Assembly: GCA_964036195.1 (NCBI GenBank)
Contig: OZ038458.1
Location: 9,065,832 to 9,129,831, forward strand
Source of the DNA: Sphaerolaimus hirsutus
Taxonomy: Eukaryota; Nematoda; Chromadorea; Monhysterida; Sphaerolaimidae
Reading direction: 5' to 3'
Length of the DNA stretch: 64,000 nucleotides
How positions within the stretch are numbered: position 1 is the first letter of the stretch; each line of letters opens with the position of its first letter. The notes under the pieces are model-generated. The model searched no databases. It was not told where the DNA came from and was given only the letters and a program-made list of their open reading frames with translations. Made by a program: the position numbers and the translations under genes. Below are positions 50 through 58,869 of the stretch, in pieces.

Positions 50-3000
50 ACCGAGACCACCTATGCATCCAGTCGCTGGACGGGCAGCTGTCCGTGTTCG
101 AACGGGAGACGCACACGTTCTCCAGGTTCGTGCCCGGCGCGCTGCTGCCCGGCCCCGTCGCCTACGTGGGCGGGAGCGACGCGTTCGTGATCGGCACCGC
201 CGCCGGCTTCATCGAGGCGTACGGGTACCAGACGTTGGCCTCTGCTAGTGAGGATAATCAGCAGGTTGGTGCATTTTTGGACAGTTATCTGATTGCTCAC
301 ACATTGATCAGAGGACTTCACCAAAATTGCCGCTGTCTGAAGCCACACACACTATGCCAGTGCCGCACCGTTAAAAATATGTAAAATCAGACAAATTTGA
401 CAAATGCCATGTGACGCCTCACAAACGGTGTTTAGCGTCAGGACGCTACACCGTTTGTGAGGCGTCACATTTAAAAAATCTTGTAGGCATTTTCAATGAC
501 ATTCACAAATGTAACCATCTGACACTTTACATGTCCACTTACTACGTGCGGGCGTGGCTCCTACACCCCATTGCACTTTCACTTCCACTCAACTCAACTT
601 CTGCCACTCAACTTCCCCCCACACAGACATCGCCTCTGACACCCGAAGACCCCACCCTGGTGTCGAGCACGAGCAGCAGCGGCAAGCGGGTGACCACCGA
701 CTGGACGTTCGAGCTGGGCATGCCTTCCCTCGCCATCGCAGTGGTGGAAATGTCGCCCGCGCAGCCATCCATCGTAGTGCTGGCTGAGAGGGCGCTCTTC
801 TGTCTTACTGAGGGGGGTACTCTGAGGTTCGCAAAGAGGCTCGATTATAGGCCCATGGCTATGTTGGCCTATTCAGCTAGTTGGTTGGGTTGTCGAAGTT
901 TTTTTTGTGTTATGTATGATACTGCTAAGGCGATATATTTAGTCACTGTAAAATTTCGCAGCCAGCGATGGTTTCATCCAGTACATGGTGGCTAGCGAGA
1001 GCGGCACCTTGTTGCTGTACGCCGACACCACGCTGCGGTGGACTGTGCGCCTGCCCTTTGCACCGATCCACTTGCTCAGACTGACCTTTGGGTGTGTGAT
1101 GTTGATTGGCAGTTTTTTTGCCCTTTGTGTTTCAATTGAATATTTTTAAAAGAACGTGGTAATACAAATGTTCGCTATATCCACAATTTTTGGATGTAGG
1201 TAATGTCAGTTAAATTTCAGTCATTGGCAATCCTAACGCCACATGCATTTGCACCACTTTCGCAGCACATAGTAACTGCTTCTTCATAGATATGCACAGA
1301 AGCCATTCACAGGTCCCTGTACCGCGGTCTTCTAGCCGCAGTGGCGCCATCGGGCACGCTCACCATCGGCTACCTCGGCACCGAGCCGGCGCTCTACGCC
1401 CTGCCGCACACCGACACCAGACACATCGACTACGACGCCCGGCTGAAGGAGCTCAGACAGCTGCAGCACGCCATCAGAGCCAATTCGAATCAACACGGTG
1501 AGCGCGAGTGATTTTGATTGGAGTGTACCGTATTTCCTCGAATAAGTCCCCCTCGAACAACTCCCAACTGCTGTGAGCGTGAAGAAAAAATAACTCCCCC
1601 TCAAAAATTTCTGACGAAAACATAACGCTCCCGGTGACTTATTCGAGGACATACTGAATAAATAATCAATATCATTGGAGATTGAATATCGATAAACCTA
1701 ACCAGAGTTCACGCCGACTACGAGGGTGGAAATCGTGACGCTGGAGTGCGACGTGCCGCGTGAACTTGACGCCCAATCTGTTGGCTTATATACATTCAAA
1801 TCGTGTAGTTTCCCGCACTAGTTTCCCACACTTGACCATGTCGCGCACCCAGAACGCGTACGACACGCGCATCGCCGACGGCAGAGCGCCGTCCATCACG
1901 GTCACCGTCCGCATCGCGTGCAAACAGCCGGTCGCCGACGCGCAGCTGTACGTTCGCGCGCCGCCGCCGCTGCACGCGCACCAGCAGGCGTTTTACTGGG
2001 CGCAGATTGGTGAGCGGGTGAGAGGAAAAAGATGGGAATCGGTAAAAATGGTGTAATGTTCCGACATTAGTGTTGGAAAAGTGTCAGAAAAATGCGCCAT
2101 TTGGCGACCTCAAATGGCACCAGCGCCAGGGCGCTATTCCATCCCTATTAGTGATGTGTATAGCGATCTCTGTCAACATTCCTTCTGGTGTTTGTTCGGA
2201 CGCAACATGATGCGTCTGTTCTACCCAACACGATTGCATTAAATCACTGTTCAACGTTCGATTTTTTTTGCGATACCTAGCCTGAATTTGCGCAGGCACC
2301 GAGGGCACCGAGCTGCCGGTGACCGTGTTCGCGCAGGACACAACAGCAGCCACTGGCTGGACGGCGCTGGTCACTCTGGTCTTCAAAAATGCAGCTGGTA
2401 AGTCCACCACAACTGCAACTGCCATGCCGCAGTTGAAAACCCGGAAATTACCCGCAGGTGTGCTACATTCGACGCACGCGCGCTTCACGCTGCCGTTGAA
2501 CCTCCTCTACACCGTGGTGACCACCAGCGGCAGTCGCGCCGCCGCCCACAAAGTCACGCTGGAGACCGGCTGCCAGCCCATGGGTTTGGAGCAGGTACCA
2601 CTCCCAGACCCTGTAAAAAGCCCTGTAAAATGTCATGCAAAGTGTCAAAAGTCATGGAAAATGCCCTGCAAAATGGCCGCACATTTTACATGACTTTTGA
2701 CACTTTGCATAACATTTGACATTTTACAGGGCTTTTTACAGGGTCTGGGAGTGCCCCCAGTTATTCGCTGAAATGCTGCCGTCCGACTCCGGATTGGATG
2801 GTCCATGTTTGACGCTGACTGTGCAACAAATTGGGGCGGAGTTGCCGCCCGTCACTTTGATGGCGTCGAAAAATACGCGTGAGCTTTTTGCCGCGTCCTT
2901 TTTTGGTGTGTGATTTTTCGAGTCTCAGTTGATAGCAATTTCATTTTCAGAGCGATACAGAGTGCAGTCGGATGCGATCGAATGCATCGGACCGGTTTTA

Positions 3001-6000
3001 TCTGCGTTGGTAACGAAGCTGCAAAGTGGATCGGCAACGTTGGAAAATGGCCAGAAAATGAAGCTGAGCTTCAACGAAGAGCTGCCGCTGCCCGCTTATT
3101 TCTCCATCGTCGACAGTCACTTTGAAGTAAATTGGCATATCGTATTCGCTTGAATAATTCCCCCGGGGAATTATTTCTTTGTCAGACTTTTTCGATGGGG
3201 ATCCAATCGAGGGGAAATTTTTCAAGGGGGTAATTATTATTTCGTCAATATTTTCACGCATGTTTCTATCAACTAAATCTACGAAATATGCTTTATTCAC
3301 GCAACAACACGCCATTTTTGTTCAAATGGACACAACAAATTGATCATTTGCCTTAAGGTGGAATTATTCCGGCGGGGGAAGTATTCAATGGGGGAGTTAT
3401 TCAAACGGGGAATTATTCTAAGGGGAATTATTCAAAAAAATACGGTAATTATACACACCTAATGCACATCCAATAAAAAAACCCAAACCTTTCGCTCAGC
3501 TGCAAAAGCGCCAGTTCAAACTGGCCGAGGTGTTGGAGCAGCGGTGCAGCCAGCTGACGGCCATCCAGCGCAGACTCATGATGCGCTTCAAAGACGCCGC
3601 CGCCGGCGACACGGCCAAGCAGAGCGACTCCATGGTGCACATGGACACGCTGTTCGAGTTGACCCAGAGACAGGTGCGTGATTTGGTTGGGTTTCGCTTG
3701 TTTTGTGTGAGAATGATTTGAAAGTGTGTGTTTCATTTTTTGATGTAATCAATCAGGCTGTCAGATGACATCGCACTATTTGTATTCTTACTAGTTCTGA
3801 ACCGCTGTATTGGGTGAAAAATAGTAGACCAAAAGCGGCACAAACGCACATCTAGCTTAACAGTTTCACTGATACTGTTCATCAGTTAAATTTCAATTGT
3901 GTGCAATTGTGAATGTGAATATTTACAAATGCCAATGGTGTCAGTCAATGGTTTACAAGACAAAACACACGAGTGATCACAAAACAAGTGTTTATAAAGA
4001 AATTGGCACAAACATCCACGTATCCACATGTCATCAGCTTGAACTGTGATGAGGTGCCACTCCCAGACAGTGTAAAATGTCCTGTAAAGGTCAAATGTCA
4101 TACAAAGTGTCAAACGTCATGTAAAATTACTCGTAAAATGGCAAACAAAGTTTCCCTTTTCAGGTCATTTTACACGACCTTTGACACTTTGCATGACATT
4201 TTACATTTTACAGGGTGTGGTTTTGCCCCCATGTTTCTGATTATGGTGCTTCAGGTGCAACAGTAGTTTTACGACAAGAAAACCGTCTTGAAACTGCGAT
4301 CCTTAATTCCCTACTTATCATCAAATAAATAAACGCATTGAAACAGTATGCACTAATGTGAGCAATGACGACAACATAGTATTCACGCAAGACACGGTAA
4401 ATGAATTCAATATACCTAGTATACTTTGGTAAATATTAGGTTGTAAACTAATGAAGTGTCTTTTTTCGCCATCTCATACAAATATACATTTGTGCTTTTC
4501 ATTGTGTTGTACGTTGACCGATTTTGATGCCATTTGAGTATGTTGTGGTTTGGGGTCTGGGCTATGATGATATGTTTTTGTTTGCTCAAATAGTCCCCCA
4601 GTCCCGAGATAAGGGGGGGTCTATAAAAAGGTGGTCATTTTACGTGGCCAATATGCACATTGACTTTGAAGCTTAATAACTCAGCCATTTCTGGGCCGAT
4701 TCGGATCGTTCAACACTTAAAATAACCAGGACAATCCGCATATTCAATTTTTGTGGTCGAGTTAGTGATGTCTTAATCCCGTATGCCGATTTGACCCGGT
4801 TTTTGAACATGAAAAATAATCGTAATTATAATTTTTTAAGACGATTTTTTTGAAGTTGCTATCATATACTATAGACAAAAAGAATAAATCTGGCCCAAAA
4901 AGTATTTCAATATCTCTCTCCAGTCAAAAGTTATATCACTTTAAACATTCGCCTCCCAACAATAAATAGAAAAATCTGCATGACGAGCAAATGCATGTGA
5001 CTTCAGAAATCCATATCTCGGCCATTTCTCAGCCAATTTCCACCAATGAACACTTAAAATGATCAGAAAAACCTGTAAGTTTCATTTTTATGCTCAGATT
5101 ATCTGTATTCATCGTTCTTGATTAGTTATTTACATGTATGGAAGGCGGAAGTTTAAAGGTCTATTACTTTTGATTGGAAAGAGATATTGAAATAATTTGT
5201 TTGGTATATGAATCCCCATTGTCTAAAGTATATGATAGCATGTTTAGAAAAATTTATTTTTTGTGTTTAAAAACTGGGTCAAATCGGCATACGTAATTTA
5301 GACATCACTAATCCGACCACAAAAATGGAATCTACTGGTTGTGCTGATCATTTTAAGTGTCGAACGATCCAAATTGGCCCAGAAATGGCTGAGTGAGTAA
5401 AGTTCAAAGTGAATGTGTAGATCGGCCATGCAAAATCACCACCTTTTTATAGACCCCCCTTATCTCGGGACTGGGGGATTATTCAAGGAAACAAAAACGT
5501 TTCTTCATAGCGCAGACCCCAAACCCCAACATACTCAAATGGCATCAAAATCGGTCAACGTACAAAAGAATGTGGGATGCACAAATGTATATTTGTATGA
5601 AATCAAAAAAAGACACTTCATTAGTTTACAACCTAATACTACAGCCACTAAGTGGACCAGCATCGATGCGGAAAGGGTCACAGCCTGCGTCAACATAAGT
5701 TGATTAAGAAGGTTGGAACTTAAACGGTCCCTATTCCTGTTATTTTTTGCCCTCGTTTTGTACAGTACCAACAGTGCAACGGTAGCCACGAACAATATAG
5801 AAACCAATACAAAACGCAGAAACTCCCTGAAAAGGATCACTTCCTTAATTTTTTCCCTGTTCGGAATTTCGACGTAGTACTTTTCTTCACACAATAGTAT
5901 CGTCAAAGTAGCAATTTCCGGCAAATGTAGAGACATTGCTATAGTGGCTGCCGCAAGTGCGGCTACGATTGCAAAAGTTTTGTGGTTCATGGACTGGAGT

Positions 6001-9000
6001 TTCAACATGCACTTCATAGCAGCAACCTTATGTAATAATGAAAGGATTATTAAGACTAGGTAAGAGTACGTGAAAATGTGTTTGACGGTTGACAACAGCG
6101 GACGCAGCAACATCAAGAGATAACTTGTACGAAACCACTTCGCTGTACCCTTCGCATCGCCATTGATCGAAATCATCAGTAAAAATGAACAGGTTATGCT
6201 TGAGATTATGCCATCCCAAACAAAAATAACTGCCTGAAGCCAGAACGCTGGGGGCAGTCCCAGACCCTGTAAAATGTCAAATTTCATGAAAAGTGTCTAA
6301 AGTCACGGAAAATGCCTGCAAAATGGCAACTCGGTTGCCATTTTGCAGGGCATTTTCCATGACACTTTGCATGATATTTGACATTTGACAGGGTCTGGGA
6401 CTGGCACCTGGCTTTCCTGCGTTTGCCATTTTCACCACCTCAATCAGGCACAGTGCGTTGATTGACACGCTTAGTACTGATAAACATGGTGCATAAACTG
6501 CGTACACAGCGTAGAATGTTGCGTCCGGGTGGAAATCATGATGCATAGATTTCCCTGAACCATTGCACGCTACTTCCATTGACACATCAATCTTTTTTAA
6601 CGTTTTTGACAAGCAAAGATTGTATTCAAATATTACGGAAAGGTCTTCATTCGTGTTTCGACAATCCAGAAGTTATATTCCCGCCCCTCACTGCAGTTAA
6701 TTTGAAAATGTGAACATGTTTCAGATTTGATATGTGTGCTTTATCATAGTGATGAAAAGGCGCCAGTTAAGAACACGGCTGGCGTTTGTCGCAGTCTGAA
6801 ACAAACCATAGGAGCAGTGCGCTGCACCATTAAAAAACCCAGACGCCTTCTTTCCAGAACAAGTAGGTATTTACGATCCGTACACGCCCCAATCTAGAAA
6901 ATGTGACTTTTTACAAACATTCATGCCTCATCGACATTATTAAAAGTAAACACTTTGAAATAGGATATTTGAAACGATGAAATGCATCGTTGAAATGCTA
7001 CTTGACCATTCTATAATGAACCAGGGGCCAGTTCCGCAAGTGGACAAGTTAAGAGTTAAAAGTTAAGAGTTGAGTTAAATGACAAATGGCGAGTTAAGAG
7101 TAAAGTTAAAGTTTAAGAGAAAAGTTAAAGTTTAAGAGTTGAGTTAAAATTTAAGAGTTGGGTAAAAAGTTGAGTTAAATGTTAAGAGTTAAAGGTTAAA
7201 AGTTGAGTTAAGAGTTAAGAGTTGAGTTAAGAGTTAAGAGACAAGTGGAAAATGATGATAAAAAAATATAAAAAATAAAAATGTAAAATTGGTCCCGAAC
7301 AACGCTCCCAAAATCCGAATTCATTTTTTTAATTTTTTTATTACATTTTTCCCCCATTTGTCTTTTAAATCAACTTTTAACTCACCTTTTAAGCGGGAAT
7401 TAGAGCTCAGCGTCGATTCGACGTGAAATGATGACGTGAAATGTTGTTGTGAAATTAATTACACGAGTGTGGATCATGCTACGGGTCTACAATTTTCTAA
7501 GGATAATATATGAATCAATACCTTAATCGTGTCCAATACTGAGTGTTATCAGCCACAACTAGAGCGAATTGAAAAATTCAATTTTTATCATTTCACGTCA
7601 TCATCATTTCACGTCACAGTGTCAGGGAACAACTTGACATTTCACGTCAGACTGCTGCTTGCAATAGTCTGACGTGAAACGTCAAGTTGTTCCCTGACAC
7701 TGTGACGTGAAATGATGATGACGTGAAATGATAAAAATGGAATTTTTCAATTCGCTCTAGTTGTGGCTGATAACACTCAGTATTGGACACGATTAAGGTA
7801 TTGATTCATATATTATCCTTAGAAAATTGTAGATCCGTAGCATGATCCACACTCGTGTAATAAATTTCACGAAGTCATTTCACGTCATCATTTCACGTCG
7901 AATCGACGCTGAGCTCTAATTCCGGCCTTAACCTTTAACTCAACACTTAACTCAACTTTTAACCTTTAACTTAACTCTTAACATTTAACTCAACCTTTAA
8001 CTCAACTCTTAACATTTAACTCAACTTTTAACTCAACTCTTAAATTTTAACTTTTCTCTTAAACTTTAACTTTTCTCTTAAACTTTAACTTTACTCTTAA
8101 CTCGCCATTTGTCATTTTACTCAACTCTTAACTTTTAACGCTTAACTTGTCCACTTGCGGAACCGGCACCAGGATCTAAGGTTATCTGTTAACATAAAAT
8201 ACCTACAAAAAACACAACAACGACCAAAAAATCCGTCAAAACTTTCCATCCATCGCACATTCACACTGAAAACTCAACTCCACACTGAAAACTCCCCCCC
8301 CCCAACACACCAATAACCCCCCCCCCCACCCAGGTTCTAAGTGTGGCGAGCGCCCAACACGAGCTAATGAGCCACGTGCAGTCGCGCTCAGCTGCAGTCG
8401 AATCGACCACGCGCCTCCTGCTGCAGTTGGTCGCGCTCAAGCACGACCTCAGCGAGCTGGACCAGGACTTGCTCGAGGCTACTTTGTGCCCCATTGTGGA
8501 TGAGTATCCGGAGCAGGTTAGAGTTGTGGCGACTGTTTTTCGTGGGAGGCGGGGATTTTATTTGAGATTTGAGAGGGTCTCCCCCGTCAATGCAGCATTT
8601 CTTTGCTGTTTCAATGGCATTGTTGATTTTGGTCAATTTTTTATACGTTTGTTGAGCAACAAAGTGAAGCGTTATCGGAAATTCAACAAGTTACGAGTGT
8701 AAAATGAGGCCGCTTTTTCCGAAATTTGTCACTTGACAAGGTGCAGGACAGGCCTCATTCAGGTTGGAATGAGGACTTTCCATTTTCCAAAATAATTTAT
8801 TTAATGTATGGGGTTCTGGCGAAAATTGTATATTGTCGATATTTCATCTCGGTCACACGCAGTGTAAAATTTCGAGATGGCTCTAAAAAATATACCGTAT
8901 TACCTCGAAATACCCCCATGGGGATTTATTATTTCGCCAGCAAAATTTGAGGGGGGTTTATTCGAGGGTTTTTTTATTATTTCGTCAGAAATTTTTGTAA

Positions 9001-14097: not shown

Positions 14098-14253
14098 CGG
14101 GCAGTCCCAAGCCCTGTAAAGTGTAAAGTAAAGAGTCAAATGTAAAGTCAAATGCTAAGTAATCTGTCAATCAAAACAAAAAAGAAAAGATTTTATTACT
14201 GAACATTGCATGACAATTGACACTTTACACTTTACAGGGCTTGGGACTGCCAC
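14098..14253. mobile_element. Introner-family foldback element outside a known gene
   Basis: CTG|CGGGCAGTCCCAAGCCCTGT at the left and ACAGGGCTTGGGACTGCCAC|CTG at the right. The CTG duplication is perfect. Arms pair as TGTAAAGTGTAAAGT with ACTTTACACTTTACA. Confidence 0.8.
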
Positions 14254-20004: not shown

Positions 20005-20870
20005 AAGGGGAGATAAATCGCGAGTTGATGTTGTTATTACTGGTTATTTTTGCGAGTTGGGAAGAAGAAGTCATCAAAATGTTACGACTAAAAGTCGGAA
20101 ATATTTGCAAAGTGAATCAGTTTCAAAATGACGGGACTACTGTTTCCGAAAACATTTTACAGGGCTGGTGTTATTTCAAATTGCGGCGTATGATTTTGTC
20201 AAAACGGTTTCAAAATGGGCGGAGTCTTCTGATTTATGCAGCTATTATTTTATGTGACAAGTTGAAACTGTTAATTGTTGATCAATTATGTGACGCAAGC
20301 GAAAACATCAAAGTAACTTTCTGATATTTAAATCGGTTTTAACAGTGGTGGTCAATTCGCTGTTAGCCAGCTTTTTTTTCACAATGTATCCAAAAAAACT
20401 TTTGAAAAATAAGAAAAAAAGCTACAGTCGTACATAGATAAATGAAATTGACTTACAGTATCACGCTGTGAGATCTTAATCTTACCAGAAAAGCATCAAT
20501 TGACTAATCAACGGTAAATATCTGGACAATACGTTTTTCCCGCGCTCACGTTACACTGGTAAACTCAGATTTTACCCGGAAATAAACTATTTGGCGCAGT
20601 GCCAGTCGCCAAATGAAATATTTATGTACTAGTTCAATAGAAGTGTTTCTGTAAAGTGAGCCCTCGCTGACGGGCCGCAATGAATGTGACGTAAGTGGCC
20701 GCGGGCAGATATCGTTGTTCCGAGTCTTCGAAACCTATTGATCGCCCTTTCACAGAGCCCAGTTTTTCGGTGAGTTCAAGGCGGTTCATGGTTCGAACCG
20801 GCCGACATTTTGCGCAGACATAATTACCTCTGGCATAGTGCCAACCCCTCGCGCAGCGACCAGTTCCAGT
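20005..20870. other. Intergenic interval between divergent REEP5 and BLCAP genes
   Basis: The REEP5 ATG (19923, minus) and BLCAP ATG (20871, plus) face away from each other across 947 bases. I see no repeat family in it. A possible acceptor (CCCCTCGCGCAG, ending at 20856) just upstream of the BLCAP ATG suggests a non-coding 5' exon. The interval may hold both promoters. Confidence 0.4.
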
Positions 20871-21134
20871 ATGTACTGCCTGCAGTACCTGGTGCCGGTT
20901 CTGTTGGTGCCGCGGCCGACGTACGCGCCCACCGCTCTGCTGCAGCACGCGGTGTTCATGTGGCTGTACGTGGTGGGCTTCTTCATGGGCCGGCAGCCGT
21001 GCTACATCTGCAGTTTGATTTTCGCCGTCGCCGTGGCGCTGCTGTGCTACACGTCGCCGGACACGTGCGTCTTGTGGCCCGTGTGCAGGTTGGGCGAGGA
21101 CAGGATGCGCTGCTTGGAAGCCACCGGAGAGTGA
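20871..21134 (+). CDS. BLCAP: BLCAP (bladder cancer-associated protein / BC10 family)
   Basis: A single open frame of 87 codons and TGA, exactly the length of vertebrate BLCAP. It opens MYCLQYLVPVLLVPRP and continues with a hydrophobic helix containing FMWLYVVGFFMGRQPCYIC, then a second hydrophobic helix and VLWPVC. The Cys pair in RQPCYIC matches the family KPCTIC, and all of this aligns without gaps through residue 70. BLCAP is a small, highly conserved two-helix membrane protein whose role in growth control is not settled. The coding region lacks introns, as in vertebrates. The last 17 residues diverge. A potential poly(A) signal AATAAA lies near 21383. Codon 15 is Arg where vertebrate genomic sequence encodes Lys. 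Confidence 0.95.
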   Translation: MYCLQYLVPVLLVPRPTYAPTALLQHAVFMWLYVVGFFMGRQPCYICSLIFAVAVALLCYTSPDTCVLWPVCRLGEDRMRCLEATGE

Positions 21135-25429: not shown

Positions 25430-28400
25430 ATGTCGTTCAACATCCGCCAGTTGGCAGCGTTTTCCAGTGAGGCCATGCCTTACTACAAGGTGAGAAAAAT
25501 TTCTGTGGCTATGTCGTCCTTCGCAAGATTTTCAATGTTATGTGGGTGTTAACCCATTGCGCGCTTTTCTGTGAAGCCGGTTGAGATTTGCATTCTGGTG
25601 GAAGTCCCAGACCTAGCCACGTAAAATCAGTTGTTAAAAGTACTGAACTTTTTTCAAAGTAAACGTAAACGTAAAGGGTATTTTTTTTGTACTCACCCCT
25701 TGAGTACAGAAAACGTAAAGTAATTTTTTTTACTTTTACTGATGAGTGAACGTACTTTACCCCCGCAGAAAACGTAAACGTGAGTACTTTCGAGAAATGT
25801 CGCCAAATTTTCCAAGAAATGTCGCTTAAAATCAGTCATTTTGATAACTTTTTGCATATTTTACGCAATTTTTGACTATTTTTTTCTATACCCATTTTCG
25901 ACTAGTTTCCCGTATTTTTATCTCATTTTCTCCCTTTTTTCCCCTTCTATGTCTTTAAAAACCTTTATAAAAGATGATCTAAAATACGTTTTCTGTACTC
26001 AAGTTCTTTCAAAAAGTATACATAAAAGCGAGTACCAGAACTTTTTTTGGAGGAAACGTATACGTATTTTTCGAGTAAAAGTAAATACGTTTTAACAACT
26101 ATGCGTAAAATCTCATGCAAAGTGCGTTTGCCATTTTCCAAGGCATTTTACATGACTTTGGACACTGCTTGACATTTTACATGCCTTTTTACAGGGTCTG
26201 AGATTGACACCTGAAGTTACACACTGCTCGATCCGTTTTGGCAAATATCAATTCGTTTGGTGGCTGACTACTCTGTAGGGTTGGGAATTTCAAAATTTTC
26301 GGTTCCGGTTCTCGGTTCCAAAAAATTTCGGTCCGGGTATCGGTTCTCGGTTCCTGAAAATTTTCGGTTGCGGTTCTCGGTTCGGTTCTTAAACTCGGTT
26401 CCGGTTCGGTTCTTTCGGTTCTAAAATGATCAAAATTTCGGTTCCGGGTAATAAAATAACCGGGTATCGGGTTATTACATTGGTTGGATATTTCATACTA
26501 CAGGAGCATATCACAGCTTATTATTTCATGGTAGAATGCAGAAATCAGAGTTGTTATAATAATATTGGTATTTAAAAAAGTGTAAAAGCAAACATACGTT
26601 TTCTGTACTCGCGTACTTTCAAAAAGTACACGAGTAAATGAGTACTGGTAGGAAATGTAAATGTATTTATGTAGTACAAGAGTGAGTACGCGTATTTATT
26701 TTGAGTACAAACATAAATAACTTTTGCCAGCTACGGTTAAAACTGCCACAAAACCAATGAAAACTACTACCAGTGATAATGTGTATACTGCAGCAACATT
26801 ACACCTTACAATGAAATCTACCATATACCATCTGAATAAACGAACATGATGGCGTCGTAAAATTGATTACATCAAAATAGACATAGGTACAGCGTTGAAA
26901 TTTCAGAATTTGATAGTTATAGTAATTGTGTGTAATGTCCTAAAAGAAATTAAGAAAATAATTATTATTTAATAAGTTATTTATTTTATGTCAAAATTTA
27001 CACATTCTACATCAACATTTCACGTCAAACATTTTACGTCACCAAAAAATTTTGACGTTAAATGAATAACTACTTTAATAATGATTATTTGATAAATTTT
27101 TTTGGGACATTACACACAATTACTAGAACTATCTAATTCTGAAATTTCAATGCTGTACCTTTGTCTATTTTGATGTAATCAATTTTACGACGTCATCATT
27201 TCACGTCAAACGCTGCTGAGCTGTAATTCCGGCTTAATGTCGCTGTAGTATATGTGAAATTACACGCTCCCGCGCAATCATTTTGCAAACAGATGAATTT
27301 TGCAATTCTGTATACGCACCAATATGTTCAGCTGCTGTTTAAAGGCTAAGATGTAGGTGTTGAAAAAACGCTGTTTAAAAACTTTCCTAGAACTTTTAAA
27401 GATTCCTAGAAAATTTCGGTTCTTTCGGGTATTTACTTCGGTTCCGGGTATAAGTGCCAGTTCTCGGTTCCGGTTCGGTACTCAAGCTCGGTTCCGGTTC
27501 TCGGTTCTCGGTTCCAAAATAGTGCTGGGTTTTCGGTTCGGTTCGGTTCCCCAACCCTACTACTCTGTAGTATAAATACCACTCGCGCAGTTCTACGCAA
27601 ATTACCTACCTTTCTTCCCTCGTCCACCCCCCTCCCCCGCCAGCTGCACGTGTCGACCCTGTGCGAGATGGGCGGCGACGCGGACGCCATCCGCCTGATG
27701 TGCGCCGTGGCCCGTTTCCCCTTCGGCGAGTGCACCGTGTCCCCCGAGGAGTGGGTCACCATGCGCAGGGGGTTGCCCGCCGCCGCCCACGCCCTGCCCC
27801 TGGTCACCGTGGATGGGAAGCCCCTGGCTAGGGCGCTACCCATCTGCAGATACGTGTCCGGCATCATGGGACTTTGCGGTGACGGTTGGTTTCTGGTGTG
27901 GCGTATAGTTGTTCAAAAGTATTTACTTTTACTCGATAAATACATATACTCGAGTACAGAGTGAATACGTTTACGGTTTACTCATCAGTAAATGTAAAAA
28001 AAAATTACTTTACGTTTTCTGGACTGTGGCAGATTGGTGCTGTTGTCACAAAGGTCGGGTGCTGGAATGCTGTCACAGGGATGGATTGCGCCATGGCGCT
28101 GGCGGCACTTAAAGGTACCAAAGGGCGCTGCGCCATGGCGCCCTTTTCCTGTGGCCCTGGCACCCCGTTTCCGAATGGCGCCATCGAGTTCCTGGCTCTT
28201 GGCGCCCTCTTTTCTGGCACTTTTGTATCACTGGCGTCAATGACATCTGTAGTGGTGCAAAAGCCCTTGAAAAAGCGATAAGACATTGACGCTGTTTGAG
28301 CATACATACAGCATCCGATGACAATTGACGATATTGCAACACAAAAAGCATGCCAATTGCGTCAGATGTGTGACGCCAATTATTACCGTAAAATGGCGCC

Positions 28401-31400
28401 AGTACCTTCGGTGCAATTTGAAGAGAGATAGATTCCCGATAAAAAATGAATCTAGGAAAACGTTGTAAAGGGAAGTAAAGCTGGTCAAATCAGTTTTGCC
28501 GTGGCTTCCAGATGGGCTGGACATGGTCGCGTGCGACAGCATGGCGCGCCTGGCGCACACGGCCGACCAGCACTGGCAGCGCTACCAGGCCGAGCAGACT
28601 GATAAGGTCATTTTCTATCCGTTGCACCATCCAGTTGCAGCCACACGCGCACTCAGAGCAATTTACATGGCATTTGCAGACGCACCGCGCCGAACGCTGG
28701 CAAGAGTTGCAGCGGCTGCATCTGCTGCCCTTCCTGGCCATGTTGGAGACGGCGCTCGAGCGAAAACAGACGGGCTTCCTTATCACCGCCGCTGTTAGTG
28801 GGTGTTGAAATTGTGGAGATTGAATTGGTAGAATAGTGATAGGAAAGCATGCTTTACAGGATGCCTTTTTGACATGAATAGGTAGGTAAATTTTTGAAGA
28901 AAAAATTGAAAAATTATGCACCGAACTTAGCAATACCGAAAGCTATGTAATGAGACGAGAAAAATACAGAAAATTTGAATTTTTTCAATGTGTATTTTAG
29001 GGTTGGAAAAAAACACGTTTTTTTTTAACTCGATGTTTTTTAATAAAAAACGCTTTTTTTAAAAGCTCCCAGATATGACCTTGTGTCAACATTAGTGATG
29101 GAATGGCGCCATGGCGCTGGCGCCCTTTAATGGCGCCAAAGGGCGCCAGCGCCATGGCGCCATTGGCGCTTGGCGCCCTTTTCTCTGCCGCCATCTGGCG
29201 CCTGGCGCCATTATTTAGAATGGCGCCATGGCGCTCTTGGCGCTTGGCGCCATTTTCGCTGGCGCCAATTTGGCGCCTGGCGCCATTGTTTTGAATGGCG
29301 CCAGAAATGGCGCCAAAATTACGCTAATAAATGTGACCAAATAGGACATTTTTGGACATTTCATCGTAGATCGTTACACAAAGCAGACAATGTAGCGTAT
29401 TAAGGGTTGGAAAAAAACGTTTTTTTTAACTTGATGTTTTTTTTAATAAAAAACGCTTTTTTTTAAAAGCTCCCAGATATGACCTTGTGTCAACATTAGT
29501 GATGGAATGGCGCCATGGCGCTGGCGCCCTTTAATGGCGCCAAAGGGCGCCAGCGCCATGGCGCCATTGGCGCTTGGCGCCCTTTTCTCTGCCGCCATCT
29601 GGCGCCTGGCGCCATTATTTAGAATGGCGCCATGGCGCTCTTGGCGCTTGGCGCCATTTTCGCTGGCGCCAATTTGGCGCCTGGCGCCATTGTTTTGAAT
29701 GGCGCCAGAAATGGCGCCAAAATTACGCTAATAAATGTGACCAAATAGGACATTTTTGGACATTTCATCGTAGATCGTTACACAAAGCAGACAATGTAGC
29801 GTATTTTCTCGAAATACCCCCAGGTTTTTAGGAGTTGAGTAAAAAATAACCCCCCTCGAAATACCCCCGTTTGGAATAATGCACATCATGTACACAATGT
29901 AAATGATGTATCAATCGATGCCAATATACATCGAAGACACACATAAGACTAGTTTGTGTAGCCATTTACGTTGATGCATCTAAATATATACCCCATTTTG
30001 TCACTTTCATTACCAGTTTTGGGTATGTAAAGCCCCATCTTTACTACGATATGTCTCGAAAATTTCTGGGGAAATAATACAACCACACCTCGAATAAATC
30101 CCACCCCCTCGAACTGCGACATAACTTTGCACTCTGAAAAATAACCTCCCTATGGGTATTTCGAGGAAATACGGTATAGCTACGATGTAAAGTGGCAGCC
30201 ATTAAAACATCATGTTCATTGCAAACATGATGCATTTACCTTATTACAGATAGGGAAGGGGTGTCGAGTGGGGGTTATATTCCACAGTACGCTCAGACCT
30301 ATTTGTATTTCGAAGGGGGGTCAATTCAAGGAGTATTTGGAGGAAATACGGTAGCATATTGCTTCTCTAAAAACTCTTCTGTTATGATATACGTGCTCAA
30401 ATAGTGACTTTTATCGTTGGCGCCCGGCGCCATTTTTTCAGATGGCGCCGTGGCGCCATTGGCGCTTGGCGCCATTTTCTCTGGCGCCCTTTGGCGCCCG
30501 GTGCCATTATTTTGAATGGCGCCATTGGCGCCTGGCGCCATTTTTCCTGGCGCTTTTCCATCACTAGTCAACATATATAGGTATATCAGACAGTGGCAAT
30601 ACTCTGTGATGTTATATATGACCATAAAATGTCTGTGGAGCCATGGGATAGCATTATAAGTGGTGATTTGTGTCAAAAATATCCATTTTTCGTCGACAAA
30701 TAGTTTGTATATCGCCTTATAGTCAAATGTTGAGTGACTTCACGTAAAGTTTGGCATGGAATAGTGATCAAACAAGGTTATAAAAGGAGGTTGTTACTTT
30801 GGGAGTTGAGTTACACACTGTGGAGGTACATGGAAGCACATTACCTCAATATTATATAAATACTACAGCAACATATTACGGCTTAATAACCCATGGTAGC
30901 AGATAGAAATGGATACTTTGATACTAAAAATGCCACAAAACCAATGAAAACAACCACCAATGTCAATTTGTGTGAGAAATTGCGCGCTTGCGCGCGAAAT
31001 TTTTGCAAAATACCTAGTGCTTAGTACTAAAAATTTCGGCTGATTTTTTTTTAAAAACAAACATTTCGGACGTCATGTTTTAAAAAAACAATGTTTTAAA
31101 AAAATACATCGGCCAACCCTAGTGTATTTTAGATTCCACTGCAAGGTGTTGCTATACTCTGCGGACAGCACACTTAGTATGGAAACCAACCATAATTTAA
31201 TGAATAAAATGTTGTGTTTAATTTTTTACATTAATTATTCCATAGTATAAACGAAATACCGTATTTCCTCGAAATACCCCCCCCCTCGTTTGAACCCCCC
31301 CCCCCCTCTCGAGACCACTATGAAACAGTCACCCCCCTTGAAATACCCCCCCCCCAGATTGAGTGTAAAGAGAACGTACATGACAAATACTGCAGTATGC

Positions 31401-34400
31401 AGTTTGTGTTCTGCGTAGTGCAGAACACAGGTTAAAACAATGTGCCTACACACACTAGTTTTCACCGTGACTTCGTGTGAAAACTGAAATTTTTTCAAAT
31501 GCAAATTAAAAATCACGGTTGAATGATTTGATTTGATTTAAATTTGAGTTTAAATAAATGATAGTTAAACTTTGAAAATTTGAAAACTAAAACACATATA
31601 GCATACAAAAAGAGTAGGCTGGATCTCGCCATGTCGCCATTTCAGTTTTCACATTTGTCACGGTGAAAACTAGTGTGTGTAGGGCCAATGTCGTAATCAC
31701 GTTAGAACAGTGTTTATACCATCTACGTACTACTATTAGTCTACAGGAGTCTATACATGTCAGTTATTGATGCATTTTTCTACCCCAGTGTACATGACAA
31801 ACGACGATTTTGTACTAGGATTTGAAAAAATTTCTGGCGAAAAAATACCCCCCCTCGTTTAACCCCCCACCCCCCTCGGGACCACTATGAAACAATCACC
31901 CCCGGGGGGTATTTCGAGGAAATACGGTAGGTGGGTATTATGATGGAAAAAACTGTATAATTTTGGTCCATTATTCAGATGGGTTATGGTAGGTTTTCAT
32001 ACTAAGTGTGATGTCCGCCGAGTATATCAGTAGTAGTGATGGAATGGCGCCATGGCGCTGGCGCCCTTTAATGGCGCCAAATGGCGCCAGCGCCATGGCG
32101 CCATTGGCGCTTGGCGCCCTTTTCTGTGGCGCCATCTGGCGCCTGGCGCCATTATTTTGAATGGCGCCATGGCGGCCTTGGCGCTTGGCGCCATTTTCGC
32201 TAGCGCCAATTTGGCGCCCGGCGCCATTGTTTTGTATGGCGCCAGAAATGGCGCCAGGATGTCATGATGAGAGATTATTTTTTTACATATTAAGTGCTGA
32301 ATGATCTCATTTAGGTGGTATTTAACACATATACATTCTATTTTTTTGCTAGCATTGCAAGTTTGGGTTCATTTTTATTGTTTTATACCACAAAATGCAA
32401 ATTTTTATACCACAAAATGCAAATCTTACCTAAATATCATAAATGACTTCCCGTATTTTCTCAAAATACCCTCAGTGTATTTACTATGTCACCACCAATA
32501 TTTTAGGCGGTAAATTTCATGGGGAGTGTTTAATATTTCACCAGAAATTTTGTGAAACACCACACAATTTACTCAAGACAGAAAATACAACAAAGCGTAG
32601 ATGTCGGGTCTACCTACTTTGTTACGGGGTTATTATTTCCCTAGTTCGTTCAGACCATGGGGTAATTCGAGCAAATACGGTAGTTCCATTACGATGGGAC
32701 GGGTCGGTCTACATTAACGATGGCAAACCCTCCGAAAAAAGTATTAAAATTTTTTAAGTGTTTTTTCCAGAGGTGAAATAAAAGTTCGAAAATTCTGAAA
32801 AAATTCGAAAATGTTTTCGACTTTCGAATCTTTCTTGGCATCGTTAGTCTACATAGGTTACTTTAAAAGTGTTCTTTACGCACTTATGCATCTCTGTTAT
32901 GTTGAATTGTACTACGTCTGAAATGACCCCCTCGAATTCATAAGCCCATTGAATTCACTCCCATCAAAATTTGCTAACGAAAAAATTATGCTCCTGGGAG
33001 TATTTCCAGGAAATCCATGATAAGATGAGTTTTTGTGACTGTTCACCATCATAAATATAAACGATGTAACACTTGTTCTTCTATAAATGCTTCTGCGATG
33101 GTATTAATGCTGAAATAGCGAATTTTATCGTTGGCGCCATTTTGGCGTCTGGCGCCATTGTTTCTGGCGCCCTTTGGCGCCCGGCGCCAATTTTTTGAAT
33201 GGCGCCATGGCGCCATTGGCGCTTGGCGCCATTTTTCCTGGCGCTTTTCCATCACTAATCAGTAGGTAAAATAACGTATTTATCTCTTATATTTTCCCGC
33301 CACCTCAGCTCACGTGGGCGGACGTGTTCGCGTGCGCCGTGCTGCGCGCCTGGCTGAGCGACTTCCCCACGCTGTTCAGCTCCAGGCCCATGCTCATGTC
33401 GTACCTGGTGCCAAATTTGATTAGCCCGACATTTAGTTCTTTCTGGCGACCGGACTCGTTGTGTTTGAAATTACGATGCCCGATTCAACGGCACCATGTA
33501 AAACCCTCCAGTTTACGGTCGTCATTTCGAAAACTGATAGATCAGCTTTGAACGCATTTGAGCTAGGTTCTGCAGATTGGCTCACAGTACCGGGTATCGT
33601 AAAATGTCAGTTATTCTAAAGCGGAGATTACAGCTCAGCGTGATTTTGCCATAAAATGATGTCGTAAAATAAATTACATGTGTGGATCATGACAGGTCTA
33701 CAATTTTTTATGGAAGATACCTATATGAATCAATACCTTCATCGGGTTCAATACTGAGTGTTATCAGCGAATCAGTTAGAGCGAATTGAAAAATTCAATT
33801 TTTATCATTTTATGTCATCATTTTACGTCAGGGAACTAATTTTACATTTTATGTCAATGGACGCATGCAATCATTGACGTGAAATATATCATTAGTTCCC
33901 TGAAGTAAAATGATGACATAAAATGAAAATTTTTCTAATTTTTCAATTCGTTCTAGCTGTGGCTGACAACACTCAGTATTGGACACAATAAGGTATTGAT
34001 TCATATACCGTATTTCTTCTAATAGAACGGCATACCTCCAATAGAATGGCACCTCCAATAGAAAGGCAGGTTTTAGCACTTTTTTGCACTCACGAAATAA
34101 ATAGAATGGCAGCCTCCAATAGAACGGCAGGTAGAAACTACGTTTGAAGAGTGCCAGAACACACAAATATCAGAAAAATGGGTGGTGAGAACATCCAAAG
34201 TGTTCAGAACTATGATTTACGGTTATTTTCACATTTGGTTTTGTTTGAATTGATGCTCTGATAGTAAAATGTTGTTCATTTTTCATTAAAAACACTATGT
34301 TTAAATGAAAAAGTCTGAAAAATATTGGTGAAAAAAAATAGAATGGTAGCCTCCAATAGAACGGCACCTCTAATAGAACAGCAGGTAAAAAAGTTGACGA

Positions 34401-35198
34401 AAAAAATAGAACGGCGCTCTTCTATTAGAAGAAATACGGTATGTATTATCCATAAAAAATTGTAGACCTGGTGCCAGTTCCGCGAAATGAGAAGTGAAAT
34501 GGCAAAGGCGAAGTGAAATGGCAAGTGAATTGGCAAGTGAAATGGCGAAAGCGACGAGAAATAACTTTTTATTTTTTTCTTCGCCTTTGCCAATTCACTT
34601 GCCGTTTAACTTCGCCTTTGCCATTTCACTTCTCACGTCTCATTTTGCGGAACTGGCCCCAGTAGCATCATCCACACTCATGTAATTAATTTTACTACGT
34701 AATTTTACATCGTCATTTTACGTCAAATTCACGCTGAGCTGTAATCTCAGCTTAACAATGGATCCAGTCGCCCGAAAGAAACGGCTCCGGCTAACCAAAT
34801 TCCGCACCTGGCCAGGTAAAATTTCCAAGACATTGCAAAAAACATCACATAAAATCCGCGCCCAATTTCAAAGACTCGACGCGACTTCTGGCGCCATAAA
34901 GTCGTTCTACGAGACTCCGGAACGGCGCCGGCGGCTGCGGCCGCACACGGGCGCCAAATCGCTGCGAGCCGACGACGCCATCAGGTGCCACTCCCAGACC
35001 CCGTAAATATCAAGTGTCAAGTCATATGTAAAATGCCCTGTAAAATGGCAAACGTACGTTTGCCATTTTAAATGATTTTTGACAATTTGCATATTTGACA
35101 ATTGACATTTTACAGGGTCTGGGAGTGCTTCCAGCACGTTTAGTGATAGTGATAAGGAGGAGGAAGGCGAAGGGGACGAGGAAGAATTTTGGGCGTAA
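25430..35198 (+). CDS. Sigma/HPGDS-type glutathione S-transferase homologue, probably non-catalytic
   Basis: Seven exons: 25430-25489, 27644-27878, 28512-28606, 28680-28793, 33309-33407, 34830-34984 and 35135-35198 (TAA), phase-consistent, 273 residues; sigma GSTs are near 200. The thioredoxin-fold half has YYKLHV, AIRLMCAVAR, PLVTVDGKPLARALPICRYV; the helical half has TWADV (the N-cap of the GST hydrophobic core) and AIKSFYETPERRRR, matching the C-terminal helix of sigma GSTs. Two active-site positions are altered: the catalytic Tyr that follows K-L-x is Val, and the GSH-binding Gln-Ser after the VDG turn is Arg-Ala. There is also a three-residue insertion after the first strand. The family detoxifies or isomerises via glutathione; this member may be a structural or regulatory pseudo-enzyme. 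The last 20 residues are an acidic tail (SDSDKEEEGEGDEEEFWA). ATTAAA near 35303 could be the poly(A) signal. Confidence 0.82.
25598..26210. mobile_element. Introner-family element in GST-like intron 1, interrupted by another insertion
   Basis: CTG|GTGGAAGTCCCAGACC at the left, GGGTCTGAGATTGACAC|CTG at the right, with matching CTG duplications. The core is occupied by a (GTAAACGTAAA)-type element from about 25632 to 26100, which has TTGTTAAAAGTACTGAAC and its complement at its ends. Confidence 0.7.
26276..27559. mobile_element. hAT-like element filled with CGGTTC repeats, in GST-like intron 1
   Basis: TAGGGTTGGG...CCCAACCCTA ends with a perfect CTACTCTG duplication at 26268-26275 and 27560-27567. 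Both arms are built of TTCCGGTTCTCGG words. The middle (about 26580-27240) holds fragments of a GTAAA element and an ACGTCAAAC foldback. The right end lies 85 bp before the exon 2 acceptor. Confidence 0.88.
28066..28225. repeat. GGCGCC-rich repeat, degraded copy
   Basis: Clustered GCGCCATGGCGC and TGGCGCC words in the intron before GST-like exon 3. Complete relatives with AGTGATGGAA / TTCCATCACTA ends are near 29094, 30417, 32035 and 33130. Confidence 0.6.
29001..29805. repeat. Two-copy tandem duplication, 404-bp period
   Basis: The segment from GGTTGGAAAAAAAC to GACAATGTAGCGTATT occurs twice in a row (GAATGGCGCC at 29101 and 29505). The copies differ almost only in T-run length, so the duplication is recent. 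Each contains a complete GGCGCC element. Confidence 0.9.
29801..30356. mobile_element. CCGTATTTCCTCGAA-family element nested in the hAT-like element
   Basis: CGTATTTTCTCGAAATACCCCC at the left, GGAGGAAATACGGTAG at the right. The centre matches other copies (CATGATGTATT words). Confidence 0.7.
30414..30568. repeat. GGCGCC palindromic element
   Basis: Repeated TTGGCGCC/GGCGCCATT words end in GGCGCTTTTCCATCACTA. The opposite terminus is not clear; the same repeat is complete at 32035-32258. Confidence 0.65.
31259..31930. mobile_element. CCGTATTTCCTCGAA-family element with an inserted ACACACTAGTT foldback
   Basis: TACCGTATTTCCTCGAAATAC / GTATTTCGAGGAAATACGGTA. A separate inverted element, 31441-31688, begins TGCCTACACACACTAGTTTTC and ends with its complement, interrupting it. 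Confidence 0.8.
32035..32258. repeat. GGCGCC palindromic element
   Basis: AGTGATGGAATGGCGCC opens a 220-bp stretch in which GGCGCC occurs about every 10-20 bases, closing GGCGCCAGAAATGGCGCC. Near-identical in order to the copies at 29094 and 29498. Confidence 0.75.
32450..32685. mobile_element. CCGTATTTTCTCAAA-family element, diverged
   Basis: CCCGTATTTTCTCAAAATACCC and AATTCGAGCAAATACGGTAG are the ends; C/G runs have been lost. Confidence 0.65.
33130..33258. repeat. GGCGCC palindromic element
   Basis: TTGGCGCCATTTTGGCG... ending GGCGCTTTTCCATCACTAATC. It lies 50 bp upstream of GST-like exon 5. Confidence 0.65.
34012..34442. mobile_element. CCGTATTTCTTCTAATAGAA-family element
   Basis: TACCGTATTTCTTCTAATAGAA at the left is mirrored by TTCTATTAGAAGAAATACGGTA at the right, flanked by TA. 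The sub-terminal word AATAGAA(C/T)GGCA is repeated in both arms, replacing the GAAATACCCC of the main family. Confidence 0.85.
34471..34659. mobile_element. GTGAAATGGCAA foldback element with introner-type ends
   Basis: CTG|GTGCCAGTTCCGC ... GCGGAACTGGCCC|CAG. Arms repeat AAGTGAAATGGC and its complement. Comparing with the related unfilled element at 7390-7925 (GTAGACCCGTAGCAT) shows that the inserted unit runs from GTGCC to the CAG, confirming the boundary. Confidence 0.8.
34985..35134 (+). mobile_element. Introner-type foldback element forming the last GST-like intron
   Basis: ATCAG|GTGCCACTCCCAGACC opens and GGTCTGGGAGTGCTTC|CAG|CACG closes this 150-bp intron. The CAG is duplicated. Splicing gives A-I-S-T and runs into the acidic tail. 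Arms pair through TGTAAAATGGCAAACGTACG type sequence. Confidence 0.88.
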
Positions 35199-40993: not shown

Positions 40994-43900
40994 TCAAACC
41001 AGCAAACAAGCACCCACATCGGCCATCTTGTTCTTGGCGAACTCGATGCGGATGCCGCCGCGGTCGGACGACAGCAGCGAGAAGCCCTGCAGCGACATCA
41101 TGGCCGCCGCCGCTTGGCCCAGGTCCTGTGGCGTGATTTTTCAAATCAAGAAATGAATTCAATATTCTGCACTAAAAAGTCTACTAAAAATCAACTACCG
41201 TATATCCTAGAGTAAGACCGCAGGGGAGTTATCCAAGGGCGATGTTATTCAAGCGGGGTGTTATTTTTTCCTCAGAACTTGCACATCATTCATTGTATGA
41301 ATGCATTCCGTCAACTTATGTAATCGAGGTATTTAACAGTTCAACAAAAACAAAGTATTCATGCTAAAATTCACGTTCATCGGCATCGAAATCATTCAAA
41401 TCCACCTTGTGGATACACATATCAAATACCCAGATGGGGGAGTTATTCAAGGGAAGGTTATTATGACCTTACCTAGCCAACAGTGGGATTTATAAAATGG
41501 GGTTTTATTCGAGGGAGATCTTATACAAGGATACACGGTATTTTACATTTACCAAACCAAATCCAAAGTCATCAAACATGATCTGCACACCAACCGGCAA
41601 CAAAAAATCCACCAAAAATTCACCTGATACTCCACGAAGGCGACCGGGCTGCCATTCTTATTGTGCATGCGCAGGCGGCAGAAACCCGGAAACGAGCGGA
41701 ACACCTCGCGCAGCTCGTCCTCGCTGGTGGCGGCGCCCAAGTTGGCCACGAAGAGCGTGTTGCACGGCAGCGACGAGGCGCACCCGCCGCCCGGCGTGGC
41801 CGCGCCGCCGCCCATGCCGCAGTTGGCGCCGCCCAGGGCGAACGCGGCGCCCTTGGCTGAGGGTGGAATGGATGGGTTTTTCGGGGTTCACGCTTTTTGG
41901 TTGAGTATGGACCAGGGATGGCTTTGCACTTGATTTTTTTCAACTGATTTTGCGCTATTTCACTTGCGGATTGACAGTGAGGGTAGTTTTCATTGTCTTT
42001 TTACTGGCAAACCTTTCATTTCTACATGCTAACTAGTATGTAATGATAAACCGTATTATGTTACTTAGTCTAAAATACAAAATCCATCAAATGTGCTTCC
42101 ACACACTTCTGAAGTGGGAAACATCACACCTAACATACAGTTTTTTGCTCTATACCAGACTTCTGGACGATTTAAAAAAATCTGATTTTAATTGAAAAAA
42201 ACAACAATATTTTTAAATTGAATTTTTGTAAATCAAGGCGTATGAAAAAAAATGATTTTTCTTCAACCCCTAGTATTGCAACACACCGGCTGCAGCAGCT
42301 GCTGCGGCAGCGGCGGCGGCCTGCGCGGGGTTCGTCTGCTGCTGGCCGCTCAAGTTGTTCTGCTGCGAGTGCGGCGTGCCGCCCGACAGCGAGACAGACG
42401 GCGTCAACATGGCCGGTGCGCCGGACGCCAGTCCAGCCAGCATCGACGAGTTCAGTGACATTTGCTGTGAGAAGAAGGAAAAATTACCGTATTTGCTTGA
42501 ATAATCCCCCCTAGAATAATACCACCTGTTACGCAAGTGAGAACAAAATTATTCCATCCCCTGCAGGCATATTATAATTTTTTTTGTGTACAACTGAACA
42601 AAAATGGCATGTTATTTTGTTAATAATGCATTTGTCATGAAATGAGTATTTAGAAAAATGCTTGAAAATTTTGACGAAATAATCATTCCCCACTAATTAG
42701 AAAAATGCTCGAAAATTTTGACAAAATAATAATTCCCCAAGGGAATTATTCGAGCACGAACTGCCGCATGCACTCACATTGACGGATCCACTCTGCAGCA
42801 GACTGGTGAAGACATGCTGTTGCTGCGCGGCAGCCTGCTGCTGCTGTTGGTGCTGCAGCGCCTCCCAGGCGGCCACGTGCTGCTGCAGCGTCGCCGTGTG
42901 GGCCGCCAGCAGATTCATTTGACCGGCCGCCTGGCCGCACGACGAGCCCGCCTGATGAGAGTACACAAGTAAACGTGGGTCGACCGATTACTGAATCCGC
43001 TCAATATGTCGATATCAAAAAGTATCAAAAAATACCAAATATCGATATCAAAAAGTAAATAATATCGCCCTAACTCTAGTCGCAGTGCCGCCAGACATCT
43101 AACTCTCACCTGCGGCGTGGGCTGCCTGCGCGTCGCCGAGTTGAACATATCGAGCTGGTTGCCCGGCGCGCACGAGTTGGGCGAGGTGCCGAACGCCGCC
43201 TGCAGCAGCGCCGGCGACAGCAGGGCCGCATCAGCTGAGCGCAGTGAAACGTTCCATTGCCGAGATCCAACTATCAACATGTGTTTGTTATCACGATAGA
43301 ATGACTTTCCGGTTGTCAGAACTGAACTCGGAATGCCGTATCGACCGGACCGAATACCGTCATTTCCCCGAAATACCCCGGGGGTAATCATGTCAGAGTG
43401 CAAATTTTGAGGGGGTATTTCGAGACGGCTATTTCGAAGGGGAGTATTTCGTGGAAATACGGTAGTATCGACATCGACAACTATTTAGTATGCTACCCAA
43501 CCGCAACGCCAAACTATCACAAACACATCTCCAAACAGGGCACTCACGCGCCATGGCCGCCTGCAGCATGCCCATGGAGGGCATGCCGTGCGGGTTTGCG
43601 CCGGGCGCCGGCAGCGCCAGATGCCCCCCTCCGTTGTGCGGCCCGCCGGCGACCGGCGGCGACTGCTGCTTCGGCTTGGACACTTTCGTGTTCGATTTCG
43701 CAAACTCCAATCGGATCGTCTGCGCCATGTCCGGATCGAACTTGACGCCCTGTGAGATGTTTTTTTTGCATTTTTTTGGGTGTGGACAGGGAAGGCGGGG
43801 GCGTAGATATTGAGAAATGTGGATGCCCGTTGAATTTTGTTGGCTCCACTAGTTTACCTCCCTATTTTAGAAACGGATGAGTTTTGAAAGCATTTGACTA

Positions 43901-57260: not shown

Positions 57261-58869
57261 CTGCGAGTTTTGGCACAGTGCCAATGTGAGGCATGAAATG
57301 CGAGGTGGAAATAAGCAGGTGAAACGCACTGGGTGCTCCAATACGGTGGCCATTTTCACAGCGAAATTGCAGCACTCGGCGAACTGTCCGACCACGAAAG
57401 TAATAAAAACGACGTGTGTACAATCGATTCGGTTGTCCCTCTTTGAGCGCGTGGCGAGCCAGTGAAATTGTCAGCAACAGTGCAACATGGCCGCGCGGCT
57501 ATAGAAATTGGGGTGCTGCGAAAATCGTGAGTTGGCATTTGTATTCATTGTCATTTCATAGCACGTGCACTGAACGGTGTGTAAACGAATGGGGTTGTGC
57601 GAAAAGCGTGGAAAGTCCACTTGCACAAGGCCCGCATTGTCACACCGAGCGGGCGGCGGCTCCGTCGAAAATTCGCGATCGATCACTGTCGGAAGGCGAC
57701 AGATTTTCGAGGAAAATAAACACCCTGGCACGCGGGAAGCGAAAAAAAAAACGAAATAGAAAAATGACGACACGTCGCCGTAAACAGCGCCTAGGGCGGC
57801 CTCAAGAAAACAAGTCTAAACAAAACAACAGTTGCGACAGATTTTATGCGAGTTTGAATTGAAAGACAATTATTTCATTACAAATTGAAAAGCGTCTGCG
57901 GGAATTTTACCGGACGGCAGAGAGTGCACGACAAATCGAATGAGAAAAAACGCCACGAATCCATCTAAATTTGGATCGCAATAAAAATCTGCACAATTGC
58001 GCCCAAAGTGTGCAAACATAAAACGCACGTCCAAAACAAGCAACATTACTCACACAGATCGGCCCTTTTTCAGCATTATGGGAGCCGCGAAACAGCGCGC
58101 GCGGCAGTGTCGCCTAGGCAACAAGCGCATGCGCGCCGCGCCAAAACGCACGCCGATCACATGCATATGGAGCGCGCTAAAGCATGAGCACAGGTGTACC
58201 GCCTTACAGTACGAGGGCCGAATGTAAAGACAGTATTCGGGGTGAAGAGAAGGGGAGAAAACGAAGAAACAACGACTTGGATTTTATTTTATTTTTGAAT
58301 AATAAAATAATTACGAAATTCTTGGCATGCTTCCAAATGTACACGACTGATCCGGCCCGATATCAAATTTGATCAAATTCAGCTAAAATCGTCATTAAAA
58401 TGTACCTCAACGACGGTCAAAGTGCAAAAGCGAAGCAGCGCCGAGCAAAGGACAGGTGCACTGGCGCACGGCGCGCAGCGGATAAAGTGGGCTGTGCGGC
58501 GGCGGGAATCGAATAATACACAATGATGCGACGCAGACGCGCTGATTGGCTGCGCGGCACACGAGCGCTGCATCGCGGAATTTTGTGGCGACTGGCGATG
58601 AAAAGTTAGAGTGGTGTAAATATTATGGTTACATTTCTTTCCTTTGAGGGATTATTCTGACGATTCTTTCTCGATTTCATAAATCTCAGGTAGAATGTGA
58701 ACTGAGGCAATTTCCGACTGAAACACAGCGCTGCAACGACTCGGCAAAACTTCTGCAGTGAACCGGAAACGAGTAATCAAAATCGCGAATCACCGGCAAA
58801 ATTTCGCGCGCTGTTTTGTCCCACTTTCGGCGACAAAATTGGCCCTCTGGGGTATTGCCCGGTCCAATC
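57261..58869. promoter_or_regulatory. CpG-rich upstream region between two divergent genes
   Basis: High-GC, CpG-dense sequence between the first recognised MEC-8-like exon (minus) and the 58870 ATG (plus). A minus-strand ATG at 58082 is followed by AAAAAGGGCCGATCT and a GTGTGAGTAA donor-like site; it could be the missing first exon, though its phase is not proven. No TATA box is convincing. Confidence 0.35.

Follow-up and report, generated by a model that had tools for sequence, protein, structure and literature searches.

The window, that is the whole 64-kb stretch of DNA analysed here, begins within BBS9 (PTHB1), a conserved cilia gene of animals, which is read here from the plus strand. 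The joined exons (Table 1), whose least sure edge is 1759/1809, encode a protein that matches four PTHB1 Pfam models (the Pfam comparison covered 21 selected queries from the window) and aligns with solved BBS9 over residues 1-573 (E 5.2e-83). Further along the window, a BC10/BLCAP family gene lies at 20838-21131 on the plus strand (Pfam E 6e-16), and a MEC-8/RBPMS-like gene, which encodes Ala/Gln-rich linkers besides two RRM domains, occupies positions ~41000-48236 on the minus strand. In comparisons with the PDB, which cover few species and do not amount to a phylogenetic test, the second RRM, for which two segments were joined, matches a MEC-8 protein of solved structure (E 9.5e-31), MEC-8 being the C. 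elegans protein, and the first, also joined, has its best match in MEC-8 (7.6e-27) followed by RBPMS (1.9e-24). On the basis of these matches, the gene probably points to a nematode host. The window also contains repeats of other kinds: the longest foldback among those listed (7388-7931) has two 271-nt arms, 95% complementary and 2 nt apart, and palindromic GGCGCC-rich repeat units are found at 28999-29805 and 32044-32244, one of them present as a tandem duplication of 404 bp (98%).

The predicted intron between BBS9 exons 2458-2594 and 2761-2878 consists of exactly one foldback element and one flanking CAG, as the preliminary description had proposed. The edges of the intron are those of the element, the CAG being the sole non-element sequence left, and the GT is brought by the element and the AG by the flanking CAG, which also bears out the earlier account. 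Folded as DNA, the segment 2585-2770 reaches -76 kcal/mol, whereas 200 dinucleotide shuffles of it give -21.5 ± 3.3 (z -16.7). Taking out the 166 nt yields ...PMGLEQ/LFAEML..., and the resulting protein aligns gap-free across the join with solved BBS9 (PMGLEQLFAEM versus PVSLLSLFPGF), in agreement with the earlier claim that residues E-Q-L-F are continuous. Since the PTHB1 platform-domain match covers residues 387-501 and the join falls after residue 420, this match spans the join. The restored frame is no evidence of splicing by itself, because removal of an insertion together with its duplication always restores the frame.

Table 1. Features of the BBS9 locus and of the foldback family in the window.
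Feature	Position	Strand	Remarks
BBS9/PTHB1 gene, part	67-3673	+	11 exons joined, 576 residues
BBS9 exons 1-6	67-264, 627-879, 962-1091, 1313-1497, 1706-1759, 1809-2009	+	
BBS9 exons 7-11	2296-2397, 2458-2594, 2761-2878, 2951-3126, 3500-3673	+	
Left CAG	2592-2594	+	Upstream exon end, exon part of 5' splice site
Foldback element in BBS9, complete copy	2595-2757	+	163 bp; GT at start; flanks CAG/CAG
Left arm	2599-2635	+	37 nt; 100% complementary to right arm
Right arm	2717-2753	+	Pairs with left arm
Right CAG	2758-2760	+	Second copy of the triplet; forms predicted 3' splice site
Predicted BBS9 intron	2595-2760	+	166 nt; phase 0; GT...AG; element and right CAG
Complete copy in long BBS9 intron starting at 3674	4054-4229	+	Flanks GAG/CAT, unmatched
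Complete copy in minus-strand ORF	6251-6407; CAG 6248-6250	-	
Second case, predicted intron	6248-6407	-	Phase 1; sole break in 294-aa multi-helix ORF
Complete copy	14098-14253	-	Flanks CAG/CAG
Complete copy in short ORF	34985-35131; CAG 35132-35134	+	
Third case, predicted intron	34985-35134	+	Phase 2; in 96-aa ORF starting at 34758; weakest model
Relative split by another insertion	25598-26210		Flanks CTG/CTG (+ strand); GTG starts both ends
Compound relative	59081-59388		Outer flanks CGG/CAG; GTG starts both outer ends
Sister foldback family	34471-34659	+	Same end pattern; flanks CTG/CAG
Diverged relative in BBS9 intron 265-626	355-560	-	nhmmer E 7e-6

Five complete copies of the family, 147-176 bp long and with inverted arms, are present in the window and share 59 to 89% pairwise identity. 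Similarity from copy to copy begins sharply at the junction of the left CAG with GT and ends at the right CAG. CAG stands on both sides of four of the five copies, and GAG and CAT flank the fifth (4054-4229); wherever the two triplets of a complete copy match, they are CAG. The left end is GT in all five (GTG or GTA), while the right end read inward is GT in none, the triplets being GGG in three copies, CGG in one and GAA in one. The BBS9 copy starts with GTACC, and the search motif suggested in the preliminary description, which begins with GTGCC, has to be corrected on this point.

Searched with a profile built from the five complete copies, the window also yields the relatives at 25598-26210, 59081-59388, 34471-34659 and 355-560, and the outer ends of the first three were read off the sequence. 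The flanks of the second and the third are unmatched. For the relative at 25598-26210, the flanking triplets were likewise read from the sequence and the orientation is ambiguous; about 470 bp within it (25634-26104) carry repeated GTAAA/TTTAC motifs and look like a second type of transposon. As this relative and that at 59081-59388 have GTG at both ends, the GT/GG asymmetry of the ends is not universal. A geometry scan of both strands, which required a foldback to open with NAG followed by GT and to be closed on its right by the same triplet, reports four foldbacks in the window, all of this family, against three hits over 20 order-1 Markov windows (mean 0.15). As its rules were set with the first copies already in view, this result serves as a consistency test and not as a blind discovery. 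A degenerate 20-letter pattern of the family has no match in public viral contigs and a single one in public genome contigs, in a Fibrobacter MAG and at about chance level, both being collections that may omit the genome of the window itself.

Three of the complete copies are located in ORFs, all three in sense orientation and each exactly dividing two open stretches. Similar sequences are thus found as whole predicted introns in three ORFs of one window, one of the gene models being weak, and each copy would lead to an early stop if retained in the mRNA. The second case interrupts an ORF that runs on the minus strand from an ATG at 6579 to a stop at 5535-5537 and is obtained by joining 57 and 237 open codons. 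Its 294-aa product comprises several hydrophobic stretches, and the join falls in a less hydrophobic part between them; AlphaFold analysis of the second exon alone returns only helices, with a mean pLDDT of 54. The GC content by codon position (0.43, 0.35, 0.47) is gene-like. This ORF is likely a gene, though not a proven one, because Pfam analysis of the 294-aa product reports no match near the cut-off, because the ORF is absent from the segments found by a BBS9-trained codon score, which counts against it, and because 4 of 100 simulated windows contain 237 or more consecutive codons without a stop somewhere along their length. It lies on the strand opposite to BBS9, with the exon end at 3673 on one side and, on the other, a coding-like stretch (8316-8516) which may be the end of BBS9, and is possibly a gene nested within the latter.

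In the third case, the segment 34872-35003 is coding-like (codon score 17.9) and extends 19 nt into the element, and the 20 codons past the element encode an acidic tail followed by a stop; the 96-aa product likewise has no Pfam match near the cut-off. The copy at 14098-14253 probably sits at a non-coding site, as the 30 bases upstream contain stops in all three frames. The open frame MMAGYDPCELPQ...AAAPG at 58868-59080 runs right up to the GT with which the compound relative starts. This frame may be a fourth exon using the donor of the element, but the relative is flanked by CGG and CAG, and a search for a downstream exon found none.

The outer donor of the BBS9 intron matches U1 at 6 of 9 positions, CAG and GTR providing six consecutive bases able to pair. 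The other ten BBS9 donors match at 5-8 of 9 positions (7/10 at 6 or less), and the GTs within the element at 5 at most. The outer acceptor reads CCCCCAG, formed by the C-rich right end and the second CAG. The inner TTTTACAG acceptors at 2729 and 2741 look stronger than CCCCCAG and are frame-shifting, and use of a third inner acceptor, GGGAG at 2751, would keep the frame and lengthen the product by three codons; these sites count against the intron as predicted. All three inner AGs are embedded in the stem, and the outer AG at 2760 lies beyond the main stem, which begins at 2599; three of the terminal four bases of the two ends (GTAC versus GGGG) are unmatched. Against a fully open foot, RNA folding predicts five weak base pairs there that include the outer splice sites, the opening G and the closing G of the intron both being paired, and DNA folding pairs the right CAG with the next exon. 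The stem would conceal the inner splice sites of the BBS9 element.

The best explanation for this arrangement, and one that we consider highly probable, is the introner-like creation of an intron by a non-autonomous DNA transposon (a foldback MITE) in an exon of BBS9. The MITE would have landed in a CAG of the exon, and a transposase provided from elsewhere would have made a 3-bp staggered cut, leading to duplication of the CAG. The left CAG and the GT of the element would then form the donor, and the C-rich right end together with the second CAG the acceptor. The spliceosome would excise the element and the second CAG, and the mRNA would be letter for letter that of the pre-insertion gene, because one CAG departs with the intron. 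The paired arms would probably mask the inner AGs and GTs and keep the outer ends near each other, and the gain of the intron would be recent. The earlier statement that the element "splices itself out" is wrongly worded: removal would need the spliceosome, and nothing points to self-splicing. A self-splicing intron was considered and dropped, with no Rfam match at gathering score, and the Rfam and tRNA searches gave no match.

The earlier identification of the CAG as a target duplication stands in part, the triplets matching in four of five copies and always as CAG. Because of this constancy, a duplication and a fixed target preference can be told apart only in part from the window by itself. 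The inverted symmetry, however, starts within the two flanking CAGs, and the relative at 25598-26210, of uncertain orientation, has CTG on both sides; on these two sequence features, we favour a 3-bp duplication over a fixed CAG preference with an AG owned by the element.

The introners of Micromonas and Aureococcus described by Huff in 2016 reportedly share the splicing work between transposon and target duplication, in other hosts and with other sequences. The introners surveyed by Gozashti in 2022, as far as the accessible text goes (PMC9860276), have in common with the BBS9 intron as proposed here a DNA element, a GT from the element, an AG from the duplication and, in most families, an unchanged mRNA length. 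The likeness to the introner mechanism drawn in the preliminary description holds for the division of the splice sites, which is the same in Chrysochromulina (Fig. 2C of that survey), but not for the ends, since the Chrysochromulina elements have 4-bp duplications and no inverted ends whereas a 3-bp CAG and long inverted arms are observed here. The introner elements of Amoebophrya, in the available portion of PMC7789003, share inverted repeats, direct repeats of 3-5 nt at the exon edges and a predicted hairpin joining the exon ends; their host, however, is a dinoflagellate and they were defined on non-canonical introns, unlike the predicted GT...AG intron of BBS9.

Ends and flanks recall the NuwaI group of PHIS (PIF/Harbinger-related) transposons, characterized in the excerpted text of PMC4482050 by CWG 3-bp duplications, usual GGG ends and animal hosts. 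Here, CAG/CAG flanks four of the five complete copies and CTG/CTG one relative, and GGG starts three of the five right ends; no transposase was seen, the Pfam comparison having covered 21 queries from the window. In contrast to the GGG starts usual for NuwaI, the left end is GTG or GTA in every complete copy. The same text reports NuwaI in 16 animal genomes, from fish, beetle, crustacean, mollusc and anthozoan, with no nematodes among them. On a further reading, possible though less likely than not, a NuwaI-like MITE would be filling a nematode genome with new introns: the CAG target would supply the exon half of the 5' site as well as the 3' site, a change of the left end from GGG to GTG would give the GT, and the foldback would hide the inner sites. 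The two relatives with GTG at both ends leave the direction of this change undecided and lower the odds.

At a single locus, an insertion that breaks one allele is indistinguishable from a new intron, and the element could be a fresh transposon insertion disrupting BBS9 in this haplotype and left unspliced. Consistent with this, the retained element would add 32 codons and then end translation, and its arms are perfect over 37 nt, as in a young copy. However, the three ORF-borne copies are all in sense and all GT...AG, and the 294-aa ORF is open on both sides of its copy although the arms of the latter are only 90% complementary over 48 nt, which suggests an old copy if arms start perfect; a mere disruption of BBS9 is therefore unlikely.

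Two other histories are less probable still. An old intron at the BBS9 site, its sequence later replaced by a transposon, would fit with the presence of the family in existing introns of the gene (4054-4229, and the relative at 355-560), but those copies have intron sequence around them and none remains at 2595-2760, and the fit is equally exact in two other ORFs; we give this history very little weight. No more can be given to reverse splicing of an intron RNA into the gene, which would involve no DNA transposase. Since CAG before GT is also a usual exon end, CAG/CAG need not mean a duplication, but long terminal inverted arms are not in keeping with this route, nor are the complete copy at 14098-14253 in DNA without an open frame and the copies within introns. 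Intron creation by the foldback MITE is the reading retained here.

The origin of new introns is a long-standing question, for which introners account in various protists, algae and fungi, and new introns of such kind are seldom observed in animals. In the accessible text of the 2022 survey, only two groups with introners, both animal, are found among 835 animal and land-plant genomes (PMC9860276). A nematode-wide study, in the part available, could not trace the intron gains it detected in Caenorhabditis to any source sequence (PMC9169325), and the titles and abstract openings of the literature searched, PMC9169325 and PMC13326754 included, contain no report of nematode introners, which may be in print elsewhere. 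The interest of the BBS9 intron and of its family lies mainly in the animal host and in the simplicity of the CAG/GT rule: an animal genome with three insertions in 64 kb would make a tractable case, governed by the clear rule of a CAG target and a GT end. If the NuwaI-like reading is true, a single base change would have made of an ordinary transposon a nearly harmless intron maker.
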